The notes beneath the pieces are model-generated. The model did no database searches, had not been told where the DNA came from, and worked only from the letters and a program-made list of their open reading frames with translations. 57,776 nt of DNA from assembly GCA_002699025.1 (NCBI GenBank), contig PABA01000179.1, positions 1 through 57,776 of the forward strand, written 5' to 3'. The DNA comes from Sandaracinus sp. Its GTDB lineage: Bacteria; Myxococcota_A; Polyangia; Polyangiales; Houyiibacteriaceae. The position numbers and the translations under genes were made by a program. Positions 31,042 through 47,668 of this stretch are shown here, in pieces. Each line of letters starts with the position of its first letter. The first letter of the stretch is position 1.

Positions 31042-34000
31042 TCAGGCCCGCGCGCGGCCGTGCACGCAGCGCTCGCGGGCTGCCCGATCGTGGCGCCGGA
31101 GCTGGGCGCGGCGGAGCCCACGGAGGAGCTCGCCGTTCCAGATCGCCGGCAGCGGCGCCTCGTCGAGCCGGCCCGCGATCGGGTGCTCGTAGTCGACGGG
31201 CCGCACGGCGCCGTCGGGATCGATGGCGACCTGCTCCCAGGCCATGCGGCAGGGCCGGAAGGCGGCGCGGTTGGCGAAGTCGTCGGCCTCGCGGAAGGCG
31301 CGCTCTGCCGGTCCGTCCTGGACGCAGAGGCACGCGCTCGGGCTCGCGAGGTGGTCGACGAGCGTCACGCCGCTCCCCTCGAGGGCCGCGCGGAGGGCGG
31401 CCATGGCGTCTCGCACGGCGGCGCCCCGCGGGTCGACGAAGAGCTCGCGGGCCGGCTGGTTCACGGGCGCCGTCTCCTCGATCTTCAACCAGTCGACGCC
31501 GAGGGCGACGGCGCGCCGCCCGAGGGCGACCAGCTCGGGCAGGAGCCGCGTGGTCAGCACGGCCGAGAGGCCGACGCGCAGGTCCGCGCCCCGCTCGCGC
31601 GCCGTCACGGCGCCCTCCACGTGCGCGAGGAGCCGGTCCATGCGGCTGCCGAGGCGCACCAGCTCCTGGGTCTCGCGCGTCGCGCCGTCGACGCTGATCG
31701 CGAGGCTGGTCACGCCGTGGTCGACGAGCTCGCGAGCGTGTCCGGGTCCAGGCGGCGACCGTTCGTGAGCAGGTGCACGTCGAGGCGCCCGGGTCGGCCC
31801 GCGCGGGCCTGCTGGATCGTGGCGAGCGTCTCGAAGAAGCGCCCGTGCACGAGCGACTCGCCGCCGTGCGAGAGACCCACGTAGCGCGCCCCGGCGAAGG
31901 CCTCGCGGAGCGCGTCGAGCACCCAGGGCGCCATGTCGCGGGCGCTTCCGTCCGCCGTGCGCGCGGGCGCGCCGGTGATGCAGTGCACGCAGCGGAGGTT
32001 GCAGCGCTCGGTGAGCGTCAGATAGAGGCGCGAGGGCAGCGCCGGGCACTCGTCCCAGCCCTCGACGAAGGCCTCGGCGGCGACCCGCGGGCCCTCTTCG
32101 TGCACCGCCTCGAAGAGCTCCCGCGCCTCCCTCGACGCCTCCCGCGCGAGGGCCGCGCCGCTCTTCGGTCCGAGCCAGAGCGCCCCCTCCTCGATCCGCG
32201 CCTCGCCGGCCACCAGCAGCAGGCGGCCCTGGGGCGGCGCGCCCCCCGGGAGCGGCAGGCGCACCTCGCCCTCGCCGCGGTGGAGCGCGACGTCGACCGT
32301 CTCCTCTCCGGCCCGCCGCCGAAAGCCCGCGACCTCTGCGTGCCCCCAGTCGAGGGCCAGCTCGTCACCGCGCCGGAGCGCCGCGCTCGCTCGCCGGAGC
32401 GCGAGCCCGCCCTTCACGAGCGCGAGCGTCGTGGCGTCCCAGGAGGTCCGATCCCAGGGCATGGGCATGCGGTCGGGCCAGGCGTCCTCGAAGCCGCGCT
32501 CGGGCGCGTCGCTCGCCAGGCCGATCTCGTCGCCGTAGAGGAGCGCCGGCACCTCCGGCCGGGTCAGCACGGCGAGCTGCTCGAGGCGCGCGAGGCGCCG
32601 GTCGCCGACGCGGCTGAGCGTGCGCACCTGGTCGTGGGTCGCCGAGAAGCCGAGGCGCGTATGCCCCTCGCTCCGCCGCGCGCGTCGCCGCAGCCAGGCG
32701 GCGCGGGTCGCCTCGGGGGAGGCGCCGCGCTCGAGGAAGCCGCGGAGCGCCTCCTGCGCGAGGAAGTCCGTGCCCGCGTCGAGGAGCCCATCGGTCCAGC
32801 TCTCGACGTGGTCCGAGGTGATCTCGCCGAAGACCACGGCGTCGGCCCGCTCGCCGCGGACGGCGCGGACGATCTCCGCGAGGAGCGCCTTCGGGAGCTC
32901 GGCGGCGGCGTCCACGCGGAAGCCGTCCACGCCGAAGCGCGCCCAGCGGCGGAAGACGTCGACGACGAAGGCGCGCGCCCCGGCGTCGTCGAGGTTCAGC
33001 AGCGGCTCGCGCCAGGCGCCCTTCTGGTAGTAGCGGTAGCCCGGCTCGAGGCCCTCCGTGAAGGGGTGGGCGTAGATCTCGAACCAGGAGAAGAAGGGCG
33101 AGGCCGGGCCGCGGTCGCGGACGTCGAGGAACTCGGGCAGCTCGCGGCTGACGTGCGTGGCGGGGACGTCGAGGAGCACGCGGAGCCCGCGCGCATGCGC
33201 CGCGTCGACGAAGGCGCGGAGGGCCGGCTCGCCGCCGAGCGCCGCGTCGACGCGATCGAAGCCGTGCACGTCGTAGCGATGCGCCGAGCCGGAGGCGAAG
33301 ACCGGCGTGAGGTGCACGGCGCCGACGCCGAGCTCGGCGAGGTGGTCGAGGCCCTCCCGGGCGCCCTCGAGGTCGCCGCCCCGGCGCGCCTGCTCGTCCT
33401 CGGGGGCCGCGCCCCAGCCGCCGCCGGCGCGCCGGAAGCGGTCGACGAAGACCGTGTAGACGCTGGCGTCCTTCCACCACTCGGGCACGCCCGAGCGGAG
33501 GGCGCGCCGCTCCACGGAGAACGCCTCGCCGGCCCCGCGCCCCACGAGCGCGCCGCCCGCCCGGAAGAGGTAGTGGAGCGCCCGCGCGCCGGCCGGGAGC
33601 GTGCGCTCGAAGATCCGGTGCTCGTTCGTCTCGGCGACCGGCTCCATGGCCGCCTCGCGCCAGCCGTGCCCCTCGTCCCAGCGAAGGGCGAGCCCCTCGC
33701 CGGCGCCGCGGCGGAGGCCGGCGCGCACCGTGACGCGGCCGTCGTCCCGCGCGAAGAGCCAGGGCGCGGCCGGCGCGTGGAGCACGGGCTCCGGCGTGCC
33801 GCCGACGACCAGCGCGCTGTTCCGATGGCCGCCCTCGGCGACCGTGCGCGGGTTCGCCGGGTCGAGGTGCCAGCTCCGGTCCGCGTGCTGGAGCTTGTAG
33901 GCGTAGACGCCGGGCCCGAGCTCGAGCTCGGCCTCGAAGGCGCCGTCGCCCGCGCGCCGAAGCGGCACCGGATCGCTCCACGCCTTCACTTCGCCGCGTA

Positions 34001-34070
34001 GCTCGACCCACTCGAGGCCGGGCAGGGGCGGCGGGGCGTAGCGGAAGAGGATCCGGTGCCGGGTGCGCAT
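31042..34070 (-). CDS. GH13 alpha-amylase fused to radical SAM domain, interrupted by an apparent frameshift
   Basis: About 1009 codons if the frame is restored. Residues 1-95 resemble a CBM48-like beta domain. The GH13 barrel (about 170-600) has DVPATH, FRVDAAAE (nucleophile Asp near 385), VVFGEI (acid/base Glu near 413) and SATHDQ. From about 680 a radical SAM domain begins, with CNLRCVHC near 691. Translation in that frame stops at 31710. The downstream part continues in another frame (ELVDHGVTSLAISVDGATRE ... CRMAWEQVAIDPDGAVRPV, SPASM-like) to a stop at 31042. Adding one base at about 31731 joins the two seamlessly (DTLA-ELVDHG). It may be a sequencing error or real decay. It follows the CBM21-like gene by 23 bases in a probable operon. 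Confidence 0.82.
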
Positions 34071-34093: not shown

Positions 34094-35143
34094 TCAGTCG
34101 GCCTTGCGGACCTGGTAGTTCCGGCCGGCGTTGTTGTCCCAGACCTCGCGCGGCGTCGCGCCCTCGGCGAAGCCGTGGCGGTAGACGATGGCGTACTCGA
34201 AGACCTCGGCCGGGCCCTCGACGTCCACCTCGAGGCGCCACTGCTCATAGTCGGCGACGCCGTCGATCACCGCGCCGATCGGGCCGACGTAGTAGAAGGC
34301 GTTCTTCTCGCCGTCGCCCATGCGGAAGGTGTTCACCGTCTCCCAGCCGTCGGTGGTCCAGACCATCTCGAGCTGCTTGTCCCAGTCGAGGTTGGCGACG
34401 CGGAAGTCGAGCGTGCCCTGGACGCCCTGCTCGCTCACCTCGAGCCCCTGGTCCGGGGACCAGTAGCGCGAGAGGATCGACCAGGGGCCGATCGACGCCG
34501 GGTAGAGGTCGCCGCCGTTGTCGTCGACGAAGGTGCGCTTGCGCCACTCGCCGGCGCCCTCGTCCCAGTACCAGGTGCCGTCCTCGTACCAGGCGTCGAA
34601 GGTCAGCAGGCTGCCCTCCCAGGAGCGCACCTTCACGGGCACGTGCCACTCCTCGCGGCCGTCCTCGAAGGTGCGCACGTAGTAGCCGTTCGCCGTGCGC
34701 GGCGCGTGGTAGCCCGGGAGCCGGTAGACGACGCCGACCTTCTTGTCCTCGAGGTGCGCCGAGGGGGTCGGCTCGACGAAGAGCTGGATGAGGTACTCGT
34801 AGTCCGTGCAGCCGCCGCGGAAGCCGCAGCCGGTGGTCTGCGTCCAGTAGACGCCGTCGTAGCGGACCATGTGCGTGTTGCGCTCGCCGCGCTCCTGGGC
34901 CCACGAGCGCACGCTGCTGTTGATCAGCGCCTCTTCGCTCGAGCCGACGACCTCCCCCGCGCAGCCGCCGACCAGGAGCTGGCCGCTCGAGAGGCCGATG
35001 GCGCCGGCGGCCGTGGCGGCCCGCGCGAGGCGACCGCCGCGGCGGAAGCGCCGCATCATCCACTCGATGGCCTCGCCGAAGCTCGACGTCTCCTCGGCGC
35101 GCCCGGGCGCCTCGGCGCCGTCTCCGTTCGTTCGATAGATCAT
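34094..35143 (-). CDS. lipoprotein with CBM21-like starch-binding C-terminus
   Basis: A 349-residue exported protein. The N-terminus has a basic region (MMRRFRRGGR), a hydrophobic stretch and a lipobox-like VGGC near residue 62, so Tat or late lipoprotein export is likely. The body is rich in Trp, Tyr and Gly, and the last residues, VWDNNAGRNYQV, match the WDNN-G-NY signature of CBM21/CBM53 modules that bind starch or glycogen. The first half has a related aromatic-rich beta pattern and may be another binding module. Located 23 bases upstream of the amylase fusion and read in the same direction, it probably holds starch at the surface. The ATG at 35143 is preferred to one 14 codons upstream. 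Confidence 0.7.
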   Translation of the reverse strand: MIYRTNGDGAEAPGRAEETSSFGEAIEWMMRRFRRGGRLARAATAAGAIGLSSGQLLVGGCAGEVVGSSEEALINSSVRSWAQERGERNTHMVRYDGVYWTQTTGCGFRGGCTDYEYLIQLFVEPTPSAHLEDKKVGVVYRLPGYHAPRTANGYYVRTFEDGREEWHVPVKVRSWEGSLLTFDAWYEDGTWYWDEGAGEWRKRTFVDDNGGDLYPASIGPWSILSRYWSPDQGLEVSEQGVQGTLDFRVANLDWDKQLEMVWTTDGWETVNTFRMGDGEKNAFYYVGPIGAVIDGVADYEQWRLEVDVEGPAEVFEYAIVYRHGFAEGATPREVWDNNAGRNYQVRKAD

Positions 35144-40553: not shown

Positions 40554-41921
40554 TCAGGAGCGGCGTCGGCGGCGGGTGGCCTCGGGGCCGACGAGCCCTT
40601 TGCGCTCGTCGAGGAGGAGGTCGCCCCGGTCGCGCTCGCGGAGGGTCCGGGCGGCGGCCTCGATCACGGCGGCGAGGGTCGCCTTCCCGGCGCCGCCCTC
40701 GCCGAGCTCGAGGTGGCGGTAGGCCACGTTGAAGCTCCGGGTGCGGAGGAGCGCCGGGCGCCCGTCGTCGCGCTTGGTGAGGAGCAGGTCGACCCGCGCG
40801 CCCTCGGCTTCGAAGCGGTAGGTGCAGCGGCGCCGGTCGAGGAGGATCGTCGCGAGGCGCGCGCCGTGCTCCTCGGCGACGCCCTCGACCAGGCGGAGCC
40901 AGGCCGGGTGGTGGGTCGGCGGCGGCGGCGCGCCCTCGAAGCCGTCGCCGGGGCGCGTCGGGTCGTCGGTGCCGAGGGCGAGGCCGTCCTCGGGCTCGCG
41001 CCAGGGGGTCGTCCGCGGCGTGGGCGTCAGGAGCTCGCGCTCCCAGCCGTGCTTGTGGACGTAGGGGTGGTGGAGGCCGAGGCAGGTCTCGGCGTGCTCG
41101 CACTTCGCCTCCCAGAGGCACGCGAACTTCGGGTAGACGTCGTAGAACTCCTCGACGATCACGACGTCCGGCTGGGTGTTGTCGACGCAGTGGCCGTGCT
41201 CGCCGAGGAGGCAGCGCGGCACGTACTTCACGGCGCAGGGGATCCCGCTCGCCTCGGCGTGGGCGAGGGCCTCGCGGAGCGCCGGGGCGAGCTCGGCCAT
41301 GGGCGCGATGAGTCCGCGCTCGTCCTCGAAGTCCTCCATGGGGAGGTAGTTCCAGAACTCCATGCGCGTCGGCCGGACGGCGCGGACCTTCTCCACGAGC
41401 GCCTTCAGGTGCGGCACGTTGTGGGTGATCAGCACCGTGTTGGTCAGCACGGTCACGCCGAGCGCGTGGAGGTTCTCGAGGCCGGCCCAGGCCTCGTCGA
41501 AGCTCCCCTCGCGCTGGCTGATGAAGTCCTGCACTTCGGGGTTCGGGCCGTGGAGCGACACGAAGAACTCGTCGACGCCGGCCTCCACCAGGCGCTCGGC
41601 GTAGGCCCGGTCGGCGAGGAGGCGTCCGTTCGTCTGCAGGCGGATGTGCTCGAAGCCGCCGCGCTCGCGGGCGTAGGCGACGTACTCGAAGAGCTTCTTC
41701 TCGAGGGTGATCTCGCCGCCGGTGAAGGTGATGCGGCGGTAGCGGGGCTTGTGCCGGTTGTCGTCGACGGCCTGCTGGAAGCGCTCGAAGGGGACGCCCC
41801 GGTAGAGGTTCATGCCCTCCTGCACGATGCAGAAGCGGCAGGCGCTGTGGCAGTGGAAGTCGACCGTGACCGTGAGGTCGGCGAAGCGCGTCGGCTCGAA
41901 GCGGCCTTTGTAGGACTGCAT
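40554..41921 (-). CDS. radical SAM protein (SPASM/twitch-like) with C-terminal shared domain
   Basis: A 455-residue radical SAM enzyme. The cluster motif is Cys24, Cys28, Cys31 in FHCHSACRFC, followed by FTGGEITLEKKLF (GGE motif), RLQTNGRLLADRAYAERLVE and a VSLHGPNPEVQD strand. About residues 240-285 hold seven cysteines (PRCLLGEHGHC, KFACLWEAKCEHAETCLG), probably binding auxiliary Fe-S clusters. Residues 366-430 (TYRFEAEG, VDLLLTKRDDGRP, RTRSFNVAYRHLE) look like a beta domain also found in neighbouring proteins. The start overlaps the stop of the upstream gene (ATGA). Likely a peptide- or small-molecule-modifying enzyme in a cluster. Confidence 0.88.
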   Translation of the reverse strand: MQSYKGRFEPTRFADLTVTVDFHCHSACRFCIVQEGMNLYRGVPFERFQQAVDDNRHKPRYRRITFTGGEITLEKKLFEYVAYARERGGFEHIRLQTNGRLLADRAYAERLVEAGVDEFFVSLHGPNPEVQDFISQREGSFDEAWAGLENLHALGVTVLTNTVLITHNVPHLKALVEKVRAVRPTRMEFWNYLPMEDFEDERGLIAPMAELAPALREALAHAEASGIPCAVKYVPRCLLGEHGHCVDNTQPDVVIVEEFYDVYPKFACLWEAKCEHAETCLGLHHPYVHKHGWERELLTPTPRTTPWREPEDGLALGTDDPTRPGDGFEGAPPPPTHHPAWLRLVEGVAEEHGARLATILLDRRRCTYRFEAEGARVDLLLTKRDDGRPALLRTRSFNVAYRHLELGEGGAGKATLAAVIEAAARTLRERDRGDLLLDERKGLVGPEATRRRRRS

Positions 41922-42895
41922 CAGAGGGTCCCGTAGAAGCCGGTCTTGGGGTAGGCGACGCGCCCGTCCGGCCCCTGCTGGAGATCGAGGCCGACGTCGA
42001 AGTAGAGGTGGTCGAGCTCGGGGGCGCAGCGCTCGGCGAAGGCGACGAGCGCGGGCGGGTAGGGGAAGCGGCGGAGGAGCCAGAGGAGCTGGTCGACGTC
42101 GACGCCGCTGAAGTACACGCCGTCGTGGGTGCGCTTCTTCGCGACGCAGACCTTCTTGCAGGCGAAGAGCTCGGGGATGAGGACCTCCGCGAGGGTGGTG
42201 GGGGCGGCGTCGTAGTCGACGAAGGCGCTCGAGGTGAGGAGGGAGAGCACGGTGTCGATGTCGCGCTTCGGGGAGAGGAAGCGGTAGGTGTTGGCGAGCT
42301 CGAGACCGTCCTCGCGGACGACGTAGCTCCGGCCGGCGTGGTCTTCCGTGCCCGTGAGGTAGAGGTTGAGCTCGTCGACGCGGCCGCGGGCGAGGATGTC
42401 GGCGTCGAGGTCGAAGCTCACCATCATGTAGGGCGTGCTCTCGCGCACCGGGGGCCGGAGCTCGAGCCAGGGGGCGAGGGTCTCGCGGAGCCCGGCGACG
42501 GTGGCGCGCGGGTCCTCCTTCCGCGGGTCGTAGAGGTAGAGCTCCCAGAAGAGGCGCTGGCCGTCGGTCTTCACGCCGAAGACGGTCATGTCGCGGCCGA
42601 GGCTCCGCTGGAGGGCCTCGAGGGGCGGGCGCGCGGCGTCCAGGAGGCCGGCGAGCTCGAGCGAGTACCAGAGGAGGTTCTCGGCGCGGAGCTTGCCGGC
42701 GGGCGGGCGACGCGGTCGGTAGGGCTCGAGGCAGTAGTCGAACCAGCGGTCGCCGGGAGCGACGCGCGCGAGGGGGAAGGAGGGCGCCGGCGCGTGCTTC
42801 GCCGCCGCGGCTTTCGTCACGGCAGCCTTCGCCTCCGCGGCGTTCGCGTCGGCCTTCTTGCCGAGCGCGATCAGCTTCTCAGGCGGCGACGACAC
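41921..42895 (-). CDS. cluster protein of unknown family (A)
   Basis: A 324-residue protein I do not recognise. Residues 1-40 are Ala/Lys-rich. The rest alternates beta strands and helices: FGVKTDGQRLFWELYLYDP, YMMVSFDLDADI, ELNLYLTG, LANTYRFLS and a C-terminal KTGFYGTL. The layout resembles the first half of the neighbouring protein B (DAARRPPVAKLYLNLSD and IGLNLPREG against FGVKTDG...ELYLYDP and VSFDLD), so the two may be distant paralogues. The strand pattern recalls ABBA-type prenyltransferases but no clear diphosphate-binding set can be shown. The GTG start overlaps the end of protein B by 17 bases; the stop overlaps the radical SAM start. Confidence 0.75.
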   Translation of the reverse strand: MSSPPEKLIALGKKADANAAEAKAAVTKAAAAKHAPAPSFPLARVAPGDRWFDYCLEPYRPRRPPAGKLRAENLLWYSLELAGLLDAARPPLEALQRSLGRDMTVFGVKTDGQRLFWELYLYDPRKEDPRATVAGLRETLAPWLELRPPVRESTPYMMVSFDLDADILARGRVDELNLYLTGTEDHAGRSYVVREDGLELANTYRFLSPKRDIDTVLSLLTSSAFVDYDAAPTTLAEVLIPELFACKKVCVAKKRTHDGVYFSGVDVDQLLWLLRRFPYPPALVAFAERCAPELDHLYFDVGLDLQQGPDGRVAYPKTGFYGTL

Positions 42896-43925
42896 GCCAA
42901 CCTTCCGGGGGCTCGGCGAGCGCGGCGGCGCTCGGCGTCGGGGGGAGGGCGCCGGCCTCGAGCTGCGCGAGGGCCCAGCGCATGGCGCGCTCGACCTCGG
43001 CGCGGCCCGGGGCGCCGGCGCGGACGCGGTAGGAGAGGGCGTGCTCGCCGGTGCGCGCCCAGGCGCGCGGAGCGCTGGCGGGCTCGACGAAGAGGCCGAT
43101 CTCGCCGCGGGGCCCGGCGAGGCAGAGCACGGGGTCGAGGCGGAAGAGGGCGCCGTCGTGGGCGCGGGGCTTCACGTAGACGGTGAAGCGGCCGGCGACG
43201 TCGGCGCCGACGGACTTCACGAGCCCGGGCGCGAAGGGGAGGGCGGCGCGGGCGGTGGCGTCGTCCCAGCCCGGGAGGCGGCGGAGCGCCCCGTCGACCG
43301 GCGCGTCGGAGCGCGGGGCGACGAAGTGGGCGCGGGGCCGGAGGGCGCCGTCCTCGAGCGCGTGGCAGACGACCACGCCGGCGAGCGGGAGGCCCTCGGC
43401 CCAGGCGCGGAGCGGCGCCGGCGCGTCCTCGGGGAGCGCCTCTCGCTGGGCGTAGAGCTTGGTCTCGGCGGCGCCCTCGCGGGGGAGGTTCAGGCCGATG
43501 ACGTGGGCCGGCCTGGGGAGGGCGAGGGCGCGGGCGACGGCGGCGCGGGCGTCGGCGGAGGCGTCCGAGAGGTTGAGGTAGAGCTTGGCGACGGGCGGGC
43601 GGCGCGCGGCGTCCCAGCCGACGATGAAGGGCGCCTCGATGGGCGCCTCGAGCAGCGCGGGGCGGGGCACGCCGAGGGCGTCGAGGGCGGCGCCGGCCTC
43701 CTCGCGTTGGACGCCCTCCACCATCATGCGCAGGCCGGTGATCGCCCGGCCGTCGAGGCGGAGCGAGGCCTCGAGGGCGGCGAGGCCGCGGGGGGCGAAG
43801 AGCGCGGCGAGGGCGGGCGCGCGGTCGGCCCAGGGCCCGAGGCTGCCCTCGAACGCGCGCTGGAGCTCGGCGCGGCTGTCCTCGGCGCGCGCGCGCTCCG
43901 GGAAATGCTCGCGGACCTCAGCCAT
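42879..43925 (-). CDS. cluster protein of unknown family (B) with C-terminal shared domain
   Basis: A 348-residue protein with no recognised family. The first two thirds resemble protein A in strand order (APFIVGWDAARRP, KLYLNLSDASADARA, HVIGLNLPREG, AGVVVCHAL). Residues 261-323 (FRLDPVLCLAGP, IGLFVEPASAPRAW, HALSYRVRAG) match the N-terminal domain of the radical SAM protein at 46517 (PLHVELSPLADTPRY, LALSYRARG). The start overlaps the upstream B12-radical SAM gene by 8 bases, and the stop overlaps the next by 17. No signal peptide. Confidence 0.77.
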   Translation of the reverse strand: MAEVREHFPERARAEDSRAELQRAFEGSLGPWADRAPALAALFAPRGLAALEASLRLDGRAITGLRMMVEGVQREEAGAALDALGVPRPALLEAPIEAPFIVGWDAARRPPVAKLYLNLSDASADARAAVARALALPRPAHVIGLNLPREGAAETKLYAQREALPEDAPAPLRAWAEGLPLAGVVVCHALEDGALRPRAHFVAPRSDAPVDGALRRLPGWDDATARAALPFAPGLVKSVGADVAGRFTVYVKPRAHDGALFRLDPVLCLAGPRGEIGLFVEPASAPRAWARTGEHALSYRVRAGAPGRAEVERAMRWALAQLEAGALPPTPSAAALAEPPEGWRVVAA

Positions 43926-45597
43926 GGGCGGCCTCGCGGGGCTCGCCGCGGACCAGCGGGAGGGCGTCGCGGTGGACGAGGCGGATCACCTCGCGGAGCT
44001 GCGGCGCGTCCTCGCGGGCGAGCGGGCCTCGGTGCGAGTAGGCGACGCCGTCCACGGCCTCGAAGTAGGGGCGGTCGGGGGCGCGCGGCACGGCCTCGAG
44101 GACGACCTCGCCACCGGGCGCGTCGAGATCGAAGAAGAGGCCGTCGTGCTGGTTGCGCATGGTGCGCAGGCGCCAGCCCTGGACGCGCCCGCCGACGCGC
44201 TGCCGGATGCTCTCGACCAGCTCGATGGGCACGGGCGTCACGCCCCGGTCCCGCGCCGAGTCGATGTGGCGCGGGCCCGCCTCGCGTCGCGGATCGGCGC
44301 TCCGGTCGCGCACCTGGAAGCCGGCCCAGCGCTCGGCGACGACCGGGTTGGCGTGCTCCTCGGCGACGCGCTTCACGTAGGCCAGCTCGCGCTGGAGGTC
44401 CTCGGGCGACCAGCCCGCGCAGGAGCGGATGTGCCAGGTCTCCGGGTCGAAGTCGATGGCGAGCTCCGCGTCGGCGCGGTCGAGGAGCGCGTCGGGGAGC
44501 ACCAGCGTCCAGAAGACGCGCACCGAGTCGGCGATCTCGACCGCGTGGTGGAAGGTGCGACGGAAGCTCTCCGGGTCGTCGCCGGGGAGACCGAGCATGA
44601 GCTCGAGCTCGATCGGGAAGTGGTCGCGCACGACGTCCACGACGCGCTCGAAGCGGGCGAGGTCGAAGGGGCGGCCGAGCCGGTGGAGCACCTCGGGCTC
44701 GAAGCTCTGCACGCCGATGGCGACCTGACAGCGCTTGAAGGACGTGAGCAGCTCGAGGTGCTCGTCACGGAGGAAGGTCGGGTAGAGGTGCCCGTGGACG
44801 AGGGTCTCGGCGAGCACGCCGGTCTGGCGCTCGGCCTCGGCGAGGTTCCGGAAGCCGCGCGGGCTGAGGTTGAAGGCGGCGTCGAGGTTGAAGACGTTCG
44901 GGACGCGCGCGCGGCGGAGGCCCTCGAGGTGGGAGGCGAGGTGCTCGACGGAGAAGACGCGGTCCGAGGCCTGCTCGCCCCACTGGCAGAAGGTGCAGTG
45001 GATGGGGCAGCCCCGGTAGGTCTCGAGGTAGCCGGTGCGGCCGACGGGGGCGAGGTCGAGCTGGTAGGGGGAGGGGTAGGCGTCGACGTCGATGCGTTCG
45101 AGCGGGCCCGTGGAGCGCCAGCCGAGGGCGTGCGGGCGGAGGAGGCCCGGGATGGCGTCCCAGTCGTCTTCGCGGAGGAGCGCGCGGAGCACCTCCTCGC
45201 CCTCGCCCGTGACGGCGGCGTCGACGGTGTGGGCGAGCTCGCGGTAGGGGGCGAGCGCGAAGACCGAGGGCCGCGCGTGGGGGCCGCCGATGACGACGCG
45301 CACGCTCGGGTCCCAGCGGCGGATGCGCGCGGCCAGATCGCGGAAGGGGCCGATGGACCAGAGGTAGAGGGAGGCGCCGACGTGGGTCGGGCGGAAGTCG
45401 CGGATGGCCTCGAAGAACGCCTCCGGGTCGCCCGAGCGGAGGTCGATGATGCGGATCTCGACGTCGTCGAGGTCGGGGCAGGCGCGGATCGAGGCCTCGA
45501 GCTTCCGCACGCCGTAGGTGAAGGGCACGAAGTCGCCGCTGGGGTCCTCCCAGATCGGGTCGATGGAGACGAGGGCCAGTCGGCGATCGCGCGGCAT
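43918..45597 (-). CDS. B12-binding-domain radical SAM protein
   Basis: A 559-residue enzyme. Residues 1-140 form a cobalamin-binding-like Rossmann domain (VVIGGPHARPS, DAAVTGEGEEVLRALL), without the DxHxxG motif, as is common in this class. The radical SAM domain has Cys197, Cys201 and Cys204 in YRGCPIHCTFCQWGEQ, then VFNLDAAFN and QVAIGVQSFEPEVLHRLGR. Members are methylases, ring-contracting and other radical enzymes. The C-terminal 75 residues (LFFDLDAPGGEVVLEAVPR, RPYFEAVDGVAYSHRG) resemble the domain shared in the cluster. The ATG lies 44 bases after the oxygenase-copy-2 stop. Confidence 0.88.
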   Translation of the reverse strand: MPRDRRLALVSIDPIWEDPSGDFVPFTYGVRKLEASIRACPDLDDVEIRIIDLRSGDPEAFFEAIRDFRPTHVGASLYLWSIGPFRDLAARIRRWDPSVRVVIGGPHARPSVFALAPYRELAHTVDAAVTGEGEEVLRALLREDDWDAIPGLLRPHALGWRSTGPLERIDVDAYPSPYQLDLAPVGRTGYLETYRGCPIHCTFCQWGEQASDRVFSVEHLASHLEGLRRARVPNVFNLDAAFNLSPRGFRNLAEAERQTGVLAETLVHGHLYPTFLRDEHLELLTSFKRCQVAIGVQSFEPEVLHRLGRPFDLARFERVVDVVRDHFPIELELMLGLPGDDPESFRRTFHHAVEIADSVRVFWTLVLPDALLDRADAELAIDFDPETWHIRSCAGWSPEDLQRELAYVKRVAEEHANPVVAERWAGFQVRDRSADPRREAGPRHIDSARDRGVTPVPIELVESIRQRVGGRVQGWRLRTMRNQHDGLFFDLDAPGGEVVLEAVPRAPDRPYFEAVDGVAYSHRGPLAREDAPQLREVIRLVHRDALPLVRGEPREAAHG

Positions 45598-45641
45598 GGG
45601 CGGGGAACGAAGCGGCCTCCGGCGCGGGAGGCCCGGGGCGA

Positions 45642-46520
45642 TCATAGCAGCGCGTCGGCGAGATCGGGGTGGGCCCAGGGCGCGGGGGGCGCGTCGGCGG
45701 CGGCCAGGTAGCAGCCGAGGAAGCGGCGCGGGCCCGGGCGAAGCTGGCGGCGGACGGCGTGCCAGGTGTGCTGCTCGAGGGCGACGAGGGTGCCGGCGCG
45801 GGGCTGGAGCTCGACCTGGCCGGGCCAGTCGTCGTCGTCGATCGGGTGGGGGGGCGCGGCGGGATCGCCGACGCGGCGCGGGTGGACGAGGAGCGGGCCG
45901 CCGTCCGCGTCGAGGTCGTCGAGGTAGAGGATCGCGAGGACGCGGCGCGGGGCGCGCTGGGCGGGCCAGGCCTGCCGGCGGACGCGCTCGCCCTCGTCCT
46001 CGCCGTCGATGTGGGTGTGCCAGCGGAAGAAGGGGCGGCTCGGGTCGCTGATCATGCCGCCGGCGAGCTCGAGGCGGAGGGGGCCGAGGAGCTGGCGGAG
46101 CGCGGCGAGGAGGCGCGGGTCGAGGACGAGCGGGAAGAGGGCCGGGTGGCGCGGGAGAAAGCGCGGGAGGGCCAGGCCGCTGGTGGTGAGGAAGGCGTCG
46201 TCGTCGAGCGGGCGGCTCTCGGGGGCGTAGAGGGCGGGCGGGTCGAGGCGGGCGCGTTCGGCGTCGAGGGCGGCGCGGAGGCGCGCGACCTCGTGCGGCG
46301 CGCGGAGGTGCTCGAAGACGGCGTAGCCGCGCTCGAAGAGGGAGGTGGCCTGCGCGGTGGCGTCGGACCGGGCCGGCGCGGTGGGGGCGGCGTCGGACCG
46401 GGCCAGCTCGGCCGAGCGGCTCATGGGGTCCGCGTTCGAGCGGCTCGAGGCGTCGGTGTTCGCGTGGCTCGAGGCGTCGGTCTTCGCGTGGCTCATGCCG
46501 TCGACTTCCGAGCCGCTCAC
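45642..46520 (-). CDS. PhyH-like Fe(II)/2-oxoglutarate oxygenase homologue (copy 2)
   Basis: A 292-residue paralogue of the protein at 39456. Shared blocks include RPFFRWHTHIDGE (His168, His170, Asp172), GPLLVHPRRVGDPAAPPHPID, WPGQVELQPRAGTLVALEQ, TWHAVRRQ (His254) and PGPRRFLGCYL (Arg266). An iron site of His170/Asp172/His254, or of His168/His170/His254, is possible. The N-terminus holds a repeat of SHAKTDAS and SHANTDAS from a 24-base DNA duplication and is probably unstructured. The GTG start at 46520 overlaps the upstream radical SAM stop as GTGA. Confidence 0.83.
   Translation of the reverse strand: MSGSEVDGMSHAKTDASSHANTDASSRSNADPMSRSAELARSDAAPTAPARSDATAQATSLFERGYAVFEHLRAPHEVARLRAALDAERARLDPPALYAPESRPLDDDAFLTTSGLALPRFLPRHPALFPLVLDPRLLAALRQLLGPLRLELAGGMISDPSRPFFRWHTHIDGEDEGERVRRQAWPAQRAPRRVLAILYLDDLDADGGPLLVHPRRVGDPAAPPHPIDDDDWPGQVELQPRAGTLVALEQHTWHAVRRQLRPGPRRFLGCYLAAADAPPAPWAHPDLADALL
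46447..46494. repeat. 24-base in-frame tandem repeat within an oxygenase gene
   Basis: Units at 46447-46470 and 46471-46494 differ by one base (GAGGCGTCGGT G or C TTCG...). They encode the SHANTDAS/SHAKTDAS N-terminal repeat. Confidence 0.8.
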
Positions 46521-47668
46521 GGCTGGCGCTCCGGGGGGAGCTCGCCTTCCCAGCGGGGGACGCCACGGGCGTCGAGCAGGCCGGCGAGCTCGGCGGCGGC
46601 GCCCTTCTGCCACGCCGGCTCGCGCGTCGCGGCGAAGCGGGGATCGTCGAAGTCGGCGGCGGCGCCGTACTCGCCCTGGAGCACGGCGAGGTGCACCGAG
46701 TCGGCGTGGGCGGCGAGCGCGTCCGCGAGCTCTGCGCGGTCTCCGGCGAGCATCGGCTGCACGACGGCGAAGGTGGCGAGGCCGGCGGCGCGGGCGTCCC
46801 GCAGCAAGGCGAGGCGCTCGTCGACGGAGGCGGCGCGCGGCTCGAAGTGGGCGCGGACGGCGTCGTCGGCGGTGGGGAGGGAGACGCCGAGGTGGGCGCC
46901 CGGCAGGCGCGCGAGGAGCGGGAGGTCGCGGCGCACCAGAGGCGCGCGGGTGAGCACGAAGACGGGCGCGTCGAAGGCGGCGCCCACCAGGACCTCGAGG
47001 CAGGCGCGGGTGAGGCCGAGGCGCTTCTCCAGCGGCTGGTAGGGGTCGCTCACGATCGGGCAGAGCTTGATGGGGCGGCGGGGGCGCGCCTCGAGCTCGC
47101 GCGCGAGCACGGCGGGGGCGTTGACGCGGGCGTCGACCCAGGAGCCCCAGGGCGCGGCGGCGCGGCCGAGGAGGCGGCGGAGCGGGTCGAGGTGCGACTG
47201 CGCGTAGCAGAAGCGGCAGCCGACGAGGCAGCCGACGTAGGGGCTCAGGCCGTAGAAGGTCTCGTCGCGCGCGGCGGTGACGCGGCCCATGGGCTCGAGG
47301 AGGGTGTCGACCTCGACCTCGCGCAGGCGCGCGCCGGCCTGCGCCTCTGCCTCGGCCTCGAGGCGGGCGAGCACCCGCTCCTCGTTGTCGCGGACGGCGG
47401 CGGCGAGGGTGTCGCAGAGGCGCTTGCCGAGCCCCGGGTCGGCGCCGCGGGCGCGGTAGGAGAGGGCGAGCCGCGTCGAGCGGGCGGCGTAGCGCGGCGT
47501 GTCGGCGAGGGGGCTGAGCTCGACGTGGAGCGGCCCGGCGCCGGCGACGGCGAAGGTGAGGCGGAGGCCCAGCTCGGCGGAGGCGCGCTCGAGGACGACC
47601 CCCGGCAGGACCTCGGCGCCGAGGCCGTGCGGCGCGACGAGCTCGAGCAGGGGGGCGCGGAGATCCAC
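46517..47668 (-). CDS. SPL-like radical SAM protein with N-terminal shared domain
   Basis: A 383-residue enzyme. The radical SAM domain has Cys147, Cys151 and Cys154 in PYVGCLVGCRFCYA, then KLCPIVSDPYQPLEKRLGLTR and a VFVLTRAPLVRRD strand, the pattern of the spore-photoproduct-lyase-like/Rv2578c group. Residues 34-100 (LRLTFAVAG, PLHVELSPLADTPRY, LALSYRARG) are an N-terminal beta domain resembling the C-terminal part of protein B. It is the first gene of the minus-strand operon. The GTG start follows TATACT by 8 bases. It overlaps oxygenase copy 2 by GTGA. Confidence 0.87.
   Translation of the reverse strand: MDLRAPLLELVAPHGLGAEVLPGVVLERASAELGLRLTFAVAGAGPLHVELSPLADTPRYAARSTRLALSYRARGADPGLGKRLCDTLAAAVRDNEERVLARLEAEAEAQAGARLREVEVDTLLEPMGRVTAARDETFYGLSPYVGCLVGCRFCYAQSHLDPLRRLLGRAAAPWGSWVDARVNAPAVLARELEARPRRPIKLCPIVSDPYQPLEKRLGLTRACLEVLVGAAFDAPVFVLTRAPLVRRDLPLLARLPGAHLGVSLPTADDAVRAHFEPRAASVDERLALLRDARAAGLATFAVVQPMLAGDRAELADALAAHADSVHLAVLQGEYGAAADFDDPRFAATREPAWQKGAAAELAGLLDARGVPRWEGELPPERQP

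Follow-up and report, generated by a model that had tools for sequence, protein, structure and literature searches.

A GH13 glycosidase joined to a radical SAM/SPASM enzyme in Myxococcota, with a possible role in starch or glycogen metabolism

One gene in the 57,776-nucleotide stretch of Sandaracinus sp. DNA that we analyzed (the window) encodes a GH13 glycosidase joined to a radical SAM/SPASM enzyme. The join, first proposed by an initial annotation made from the window alone, is a real architecture: the frame is unbroken in approximately 28 relatives across Myxococcota, far beyond chance, and the catalytic residues are invariant. A local accident or assembly artifact as the cause of the join is rejected on the same ground. 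The fusion is a combination of known families whose function is undescribed. Because it nearly always occurs with a surface starch-binding lipoprotein, often encoded next to it, the fusion suggests a so far undescribed radical chemistry connected with starch or glycogen. Our leading reading, to which we give a probability of roughly 40%, is that the protein would act in the cytoplasm as a bifunctional enzyme within a starch/glycogen system and perform a radical step on a glucan or malto-oligosaccharide.

Domain architecture and the frame break in the window

The features of the fusion gene and its neighbor are listed in Table 1. The first ~90 residues of the fusion align with the AMPK-beta1 glycogen-binding domain; the corresponding Pfam match (PF16561) lies under the cutoff in the window copy and over it in L049 (E = 7.7e-07). 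Residues K59, W67, and N84 align with AMPK K126, W133, and N150, which we take to be glycogen contacts, and each is kept in 32 of 33 members.

Table 1. Features of the fusion gene and the upstream lipoprotein gene, in window coordinates
Feature	Position	Strand	Basis or remark
GH13-radical SAM/SPASM fusion gene	31042..34070	minus	Intact in relatives; one frame break in window copy
AMPK1_CBM/CBM48-like glucan-binding domain, N-terminal	33804..34007	minus	PF16561, E = 8.5e-05; AMPK-beta1 alignment
GH13 catalytic domain, GH13_20-like (neopullulanase/cyclomaltodextrinase)	32445..33449	minus	PF00128; TVAII fold match on relative's model
GH13 motifs, window copy	Region I D/H 33170-33153; GFRVD 32924; GE 32834; HD 32642	minus	
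Radical SAM domain, first part	31734..32018	minus	PF04055, E = 4.7e-07
CNLRCVHC (CxxxCxxC)	32003-31980	minus	Radical SAM motif, window copy
HGGE	31854-31868	minus	Radical SAM motif, window copy
Single-base frame break	31720..31742	minus	One base fewer than relatives, near 31731; no slippery heptamer
SPASM-like domain, reduced cysteine set	31066..31251	minus, shifted frame	PF13186, E = 4e-06
Exported lipoprotein, Ig-like domain plus CBM21 domain	34094-35143	minus	23 bp upstream of fusion gene
Lipobox Cys61 of lipoprotein	about 34963	minus	Invariant in 13/13

The GH13 catalytic set was described as complete in the initial annotation, and each of its elements could be located in the window copy, which matches PF00128 at 106.8 bits (E = 2.1e-30; cutoff, 22). 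Residues R415, D417, E446, H512, and D513 (L035 numbering) occur in 29/29 aligned members. When relatives or the family profile were queried, TVAII (PDB entry 1jib) was the top match by profile, Foldseek, and VIA-align, the last giving a Z score of 46.7 and an rmsd of 3.3 over 538 residues for a relative's model. GH13 structures filled the Foldseek and VIA-align lists for the full model, so these lists cover the GH13 part only. The AlphaFold model of the whole chain of the relative L057 (1,002 aa) has a pLDDT of 91.5 and a pTM of 0.90. Judged by these sequence and fold comparisons, the GH13 part is a GH13_20-type domain, like those of neopullulanases and cyclomaltodextrinases. With GH13_20 enzymes such as TVAII, it shares an Ig-like N domain, the catalytic barrel, the C domain, and the catalytic residues, whereas the fusion adds the AMPK/CBM48-like domain in front and the radical SAM/SPASM part behind. 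It also reaches no NCBIfam cutoff; for the cyclomaltodextrinase equivalog NF041090, the score was 151 bits against a cutoff of 540.

The radical SAM match (PF04055) exceeds its cutoff of 29.5 bits narrowly in the frame-broken window copy (30.6 bits) and clearly in intact relatives (43.6 to 50.8 bits), and the CxxxCxxC and HGGE motifs align in 36/36 members. The C-terminal part matches the Pfam SPASM family at 27.5 bits in the window (cutoff, 21.5). The canonical seven auxiliary SPASM cysteines are absent; instead, four are conserved in each of two clades (C1014, C1016, C1039, and C1100 in clade A; C1016, C1039, C1094, and C1100 in clade B, where L162 deviates at the last position), one cysteine having relocated between the clades. 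Four cysteines per clade suggest a single auxiliary cluster, and the radical SAM part thus probably carries one auxiliary Fe-S cluster in a SPASM/Twitch-like end. One or two auxiliary clusters are described for SPASM/Twitch domains (PMC10452713). Sequence matches to the structures of BlsE, PqqE, SkfB, MoaA, and BtrN are weak, and no NCBIfam family reached its cutoff in the radical SAM part. Compared with SPASM/Twitch enzymes (PqqE, SkfB, anSME, BtrN, and BlsE), the fusion shares the CxxxCxxC motif, the GGE motif, and the SPASM region but differs in its smaller cysteine set and in bearing a GH13 domain and a glucan-binding module. Unlike in many peptide maturases, Pfam detected no PqqD-type RRE, although divergent RREs can escape such detection.

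The gene limits given in the initial annotation were correct; to these we add the strand and a frame break. From the ATG at 34070, the minus-strand frame of the window copy runs to a stop at 31710 and encodes the AMPK/CBM48-like, Ig-like, and GH13_20-type domains together with the first half of the radical SAM domain. The remaining radical SAM region and the reduced SPASM domain are encoded in the next frame, which ends at 31042. The statement that both enzymes share one frame thus holds for the GH13 domain and the first ~100 radical SAM residues and fails beyond them. At the switch, relatives read ...RLVDHGVTSLA..., and the window reads ...ELVDHGVTSLA... in the other frame; a base present in the relatives is missing from the window there, which breaks the frame. 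A programmed frameshift is unlikely, as there is no slippery heptamer at the break and the relatives are unbroken at this point.

Beyond the break, the window copy retains 66 to 68% identity to two sister sequences (which are 73% identical to each other), its catalytic cysteines, and a coding score per codon of 0.35, versus 0.40 before the break. These retained features indicate that the break is recent or an assembly error. They also weigh against the idea that the window copy is a decaying pseudogene, or that the joined domains have unrelated jobs in this genome. That idea draws on the single-base break itself and on the existence of Polyangium species that manage with separate genes (see below). 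Given that the fusion also persists across the phylum, we regard it as quite improbable.

Distribution of the fusion and the split in Polyangium

The initial annotation had suggested searching related myxobacteria for intact fusions and had named separate adjacent genes as the sign of an accidental join. Intact fusions are present as single open frames, and no separate adjacent genes were seen in related genomes. The single-frame fusions span ~970 to 1,320 aa and occur in the family of the window genome, in other families within its order, and beyond that in further orders and a second class. In the nearest relatives (two genomes of another genus in the same family, G011 and G016), the open frame encodes 1,319 and 1,103 aa, respectively; in a genome of another family (G039), it encodes 989 aa. 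When the radical SAM/SPASM part was used as a profile, 25/184 genomes of the order were positive; other orders of the class gave further members, and a different class gave one. After removal of duplicates, the family comprises ~36 members including the window copy, some of which end at contig ends.

A set of 84,980 species yielded at least 19 loci before a sharp drop in significance (from E = 6e-62 to 4e-16). Among the matches listed, this set gave no sign of GH13-radical SAM fusions outside Myxococcota, since none of the 61 weaker radical SAM loci matched GH13 or the N-terminal module. A single scan of viral contigs retrieved no relative, and a viral origin was rejected on this basis. We note two further proteins. 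The fusion of G011 (L036:8843-12802) contains low-complexity stretches (VDVDGDGD..., SHDSHD..., and SDSVSDS...) at its N terminus and inside the C-terminal part of the GH13 domain, likely the result of repeat expansion at the DNA level. In another Myxococcota genome, a distant radical SAM/SPASM relative is fused to TPR repeats (L091:9911-13111).

Five Polyangium members depart from this architecture, consisting of the N-terminal module and the radical SAM/SPASM part without GH13 (564 to 590 aa). The two genomes read (G155 and G156) encode elsewhere a second protein (657 and 661 aa) that has the N-terminal module and a GH13 domain with intact catalytic motifs but lacks the radical SAM part. The two genes are far apart; in G156, the GH13-bearing one adjoins genes for a B-type lipoprotein and a PHP-domain protein. 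In trees of the N-terminal module, the radical half joins clade A and the GH13 half joins clade B, with a support of 99 for each split. The GH13 tree also groups the GH13 half with clade B (AU p = 0.038 against clade A), while the radical SAM tree places the radical half with clade A but allows clade B (AU p = 0.20). The split looks derived, since the genes are nonadjacent, each retains an N-terminal module, and they group with different clades. In the simplest reading of these trees, two ancestral fusion paralogues would have lost complementary domains. The equivalents of K59, W67, and N84 are kept in the Polyangium radical proteins even though these have no GH13 domain, and glucan binding therefore appears to go with the radical domain.

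The lipoprotein partner and neighboring genes

The initial annotation placed the enzyme in the cytoplasm and the upstream CBM protein outside it, which agrees with the invariant lipobox cysteine of the neighbor and the lack of a visible signal peptide in the fusion. The second domain of this lipoprotein falls just under the PF03370 cutoff (27.4 versus 28.9 bits; E = 4.3e-06), but it matches the CBM21 domain of PPP1R3B by profile (E = 2.4e-09) and has a CBM21 fold (Z score of 11 to the CBM21 domain of PTG); the first domain is Ig-like. The CBM21 fold is thus shared with the glycogen-targeting subunits of PP1 (PTG and PPP1R3B/C), although the protein here is an exported lipoprotein of bacteria and carries an Ig-like domain ahead of it. 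The family has a conserved W...R...GC region. Its hydrophobic stretch is preceded by an N-terminal extension of 20 to 40 residues (TFGEAxExxxxR-like; window 34963-35143, minus strand), which is exceptionally long for a signal peptide.

In relatives, the fusion usually has a lipoprotein gene next to it, either of the same clade A type as in the window (~330 aa) or of the longer clade B type (~370 or ~580 aa). Within the order, one or the other type is present in 24/25 genomes with the fusion, the exception (G134) being a 72% complete genome, and outside the order in 7/7, for a total of 31/32. By comparison, the 159 genomes of the order without the fusion gave a single weak match, and three further genomes of the order have only the C-terminal domain of the B-type lipoprotein. 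Fisher's exact test of this co-occurrence within the order gives p = 8e-28, a value uncorrected for kinship.

Such tight linkage supports the possibility that the lipoprotein, rather than a glucan, is the radical substrate. Genes for SPASM enzymes are frequently found next to those of the proteins they modify, and anaerobic sulfatase-maturating enzymes modify the precursor of their substrate in the cytoplasm before export. The radical SAM domain could likewise be a maturase that modifies the CBM21-type lipoprotein before export, with the CBM48 and GH13 domains bringing in a glucan-bound precursor or clearing glucan from it. The long N-terminal extension and the conserved W...R...GC region suit such a role. 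So does the region immediately downstream of the fusion in L054 (L054:11091-13138), in which a CBM21 protein lacking any visible signal peptide is encoded by a gene that shares 4 bp with another, separate radical SAM/SPASM gene, suggesting a direct partnership between CBM21 and radical SAM proteins. Against it stand the missing PqqD-type RRE match (subject to the detection limit given above), the presence of four rather than seven SPASM cysteines, and the fact that lipoproteins of the two clades show no confident profile similarity across any common modification motif. A further difficulty is Polyangium, whose radical half is of the A type and whose lipoprotein is of the B type, a combination easier to explain if the shared substrate is a glucan. 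We consider a maturase a serious contender that nonetheless falls well short of even odds.

The surroundings of the lipoprotein gene vary. In G404 and G455, it is distant from the fusion and close to a GH13 gene. In two genomes, the lipoprotein gene lies near a GH13 gene whose product has a lipoprotein-like N terminus, which fits the glucan-directed reading. A sulfatase-domain gene lies between the lipoprotein and GH13 genes of G404 (L208:3839-6376), which raised the idea of anSME-like sulfatase maturation; no sulfatase gene was noticed in loci other than L208. The ~200-aa C-terminal domain of B-type lipoproteins, for which Pfam gave no match of its own, also ends a glucose/sorbosone dehydrogenase-domain protein in G011 (L203:4252-8573), whose gene adjoins another GH13 gene.

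A PHP-domain gene is often present in the fusion loci of relatives, and the order lipoprotein-PHP-fusion recurs in L055, L056, L057, L178, and L179. The PHP assignment (PF02811; cutoff, 26.4) scored 37.2 bits in L055 and 27.0 bits in L163. No PHP gene was seen among the window genes around the fusion. Farther along the window, a minus-strand run of genes (40554-47668) includes two radical SAM proteins and genes without Pfam or NCBIfam matches. One of the radical SAM proteins (40554-41921) has an HxsC4-like family as its top NCBIfam match, far under the cutoff, and the other is a B12-binding radical SAM protein (43918-45597). This run is possibly a natural-product or modification cluster.

The pairing of an exported starch-binding lipoprotein with a neopullulanase-type GH13 enzyme recalls Sus-type starch utilization, in which SusA is a neopullulanase and SusE/F are starch-binding lipoproteins. 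Unlike in Sus, the GH13 enzyme here is joined to a radical enzyme and shows no visible signal peptide, and the lipoprotein families are unrelated; SusC/D-like genes were not recognized in the fusion loci. By analogy, the system might be catabolic, with capture at the surface and degradation in the cytoplasm, the radical domain degrading some unusual derivative of an alpha-glucan, such as a pseudo-oligosaccharide inhibitor, released or shortened by the GH13 domain. The proximity of the lipoprotein gene to other GH13 genes in L208 and L210 fits this proposal, as does the appearance of the Klebsiella acarbose hydrolase among the close GH13 structures. Yet that hydrolase is one of many equally close structures, and no transporter was recognized in the neighboring genes read. 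On balance, a catabolic system of this kind appears unlikely.

Radical chemistry on a glucan as the proposed role

For the glucan-directed enzyme that we prefer, the following sequence of events can be envisaged. At the cell surface, the lipoprotein would capture starch or malto-oligosaccharides. An alpha-glucan in the cytoplasm would be bound by the CBM48 module and cut or transglycosylated by the GH13 domain, and the radical SAM domain would subject this glucan or malto-oligosaccharide to a radical reaction, such as oxidation or deoxygenation of a glucosyl unit. The PHP enzyme might act on a phosphorylated intermediate, which is the weakest step of the scheme.

We tentatively favor a glucan over the lipoprotein as the radical substrate for three reasons: the glucan-binding residues stay with the radical domain even where GH13 is lost, the SPASM cysteine set is reduced and no recognition domain was found by Pfam, and in Polyangium a radical half of clade A coexists with a lipoprotein of clade B. 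Several considerations pull the other way. Most known SPASM enzymes act on peptides or proteins, the lipoprotein accompanies the fusion very closely across genomes, and the second CBM21-radical SAM pair of L054 suggests a protein partner. In addition, the radical SAM domain by itself does not compel the assignment of the Polyangium radical half to clade A.

A limited search of part of the literature retrieved no earlier description of a GH13-radical SAM fusion and no system in which a glycosidase acting on starch is coupled to radical SAM chemistry. The fusion might represent a new class of radical enzyme acting directly on alpha-glucans, in which the CBM48 and GH13 domains bind and cleave glycogen or malto-oligosaccharide and the attached radical SAM domain chemically alters a glucosyl unit; we put this forward as conceivable, at less than an even chance. 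The case is notable for a fusion that spans the phylum, keeps both active sites, and is accompanied by a surface glucan-binding lipoprotein in nearly every genome. Whether the radical substrate is a glucan or the lipoprotein is a clear, testable question, and the natural split in Polyangium allows the two halves to be studied apart. If the enzyme does act directly on alpha-glucans, Myxococcota would make an undescribed modified glucan, and the fusion would tie radical chemistry to a storage or dietary glucan.
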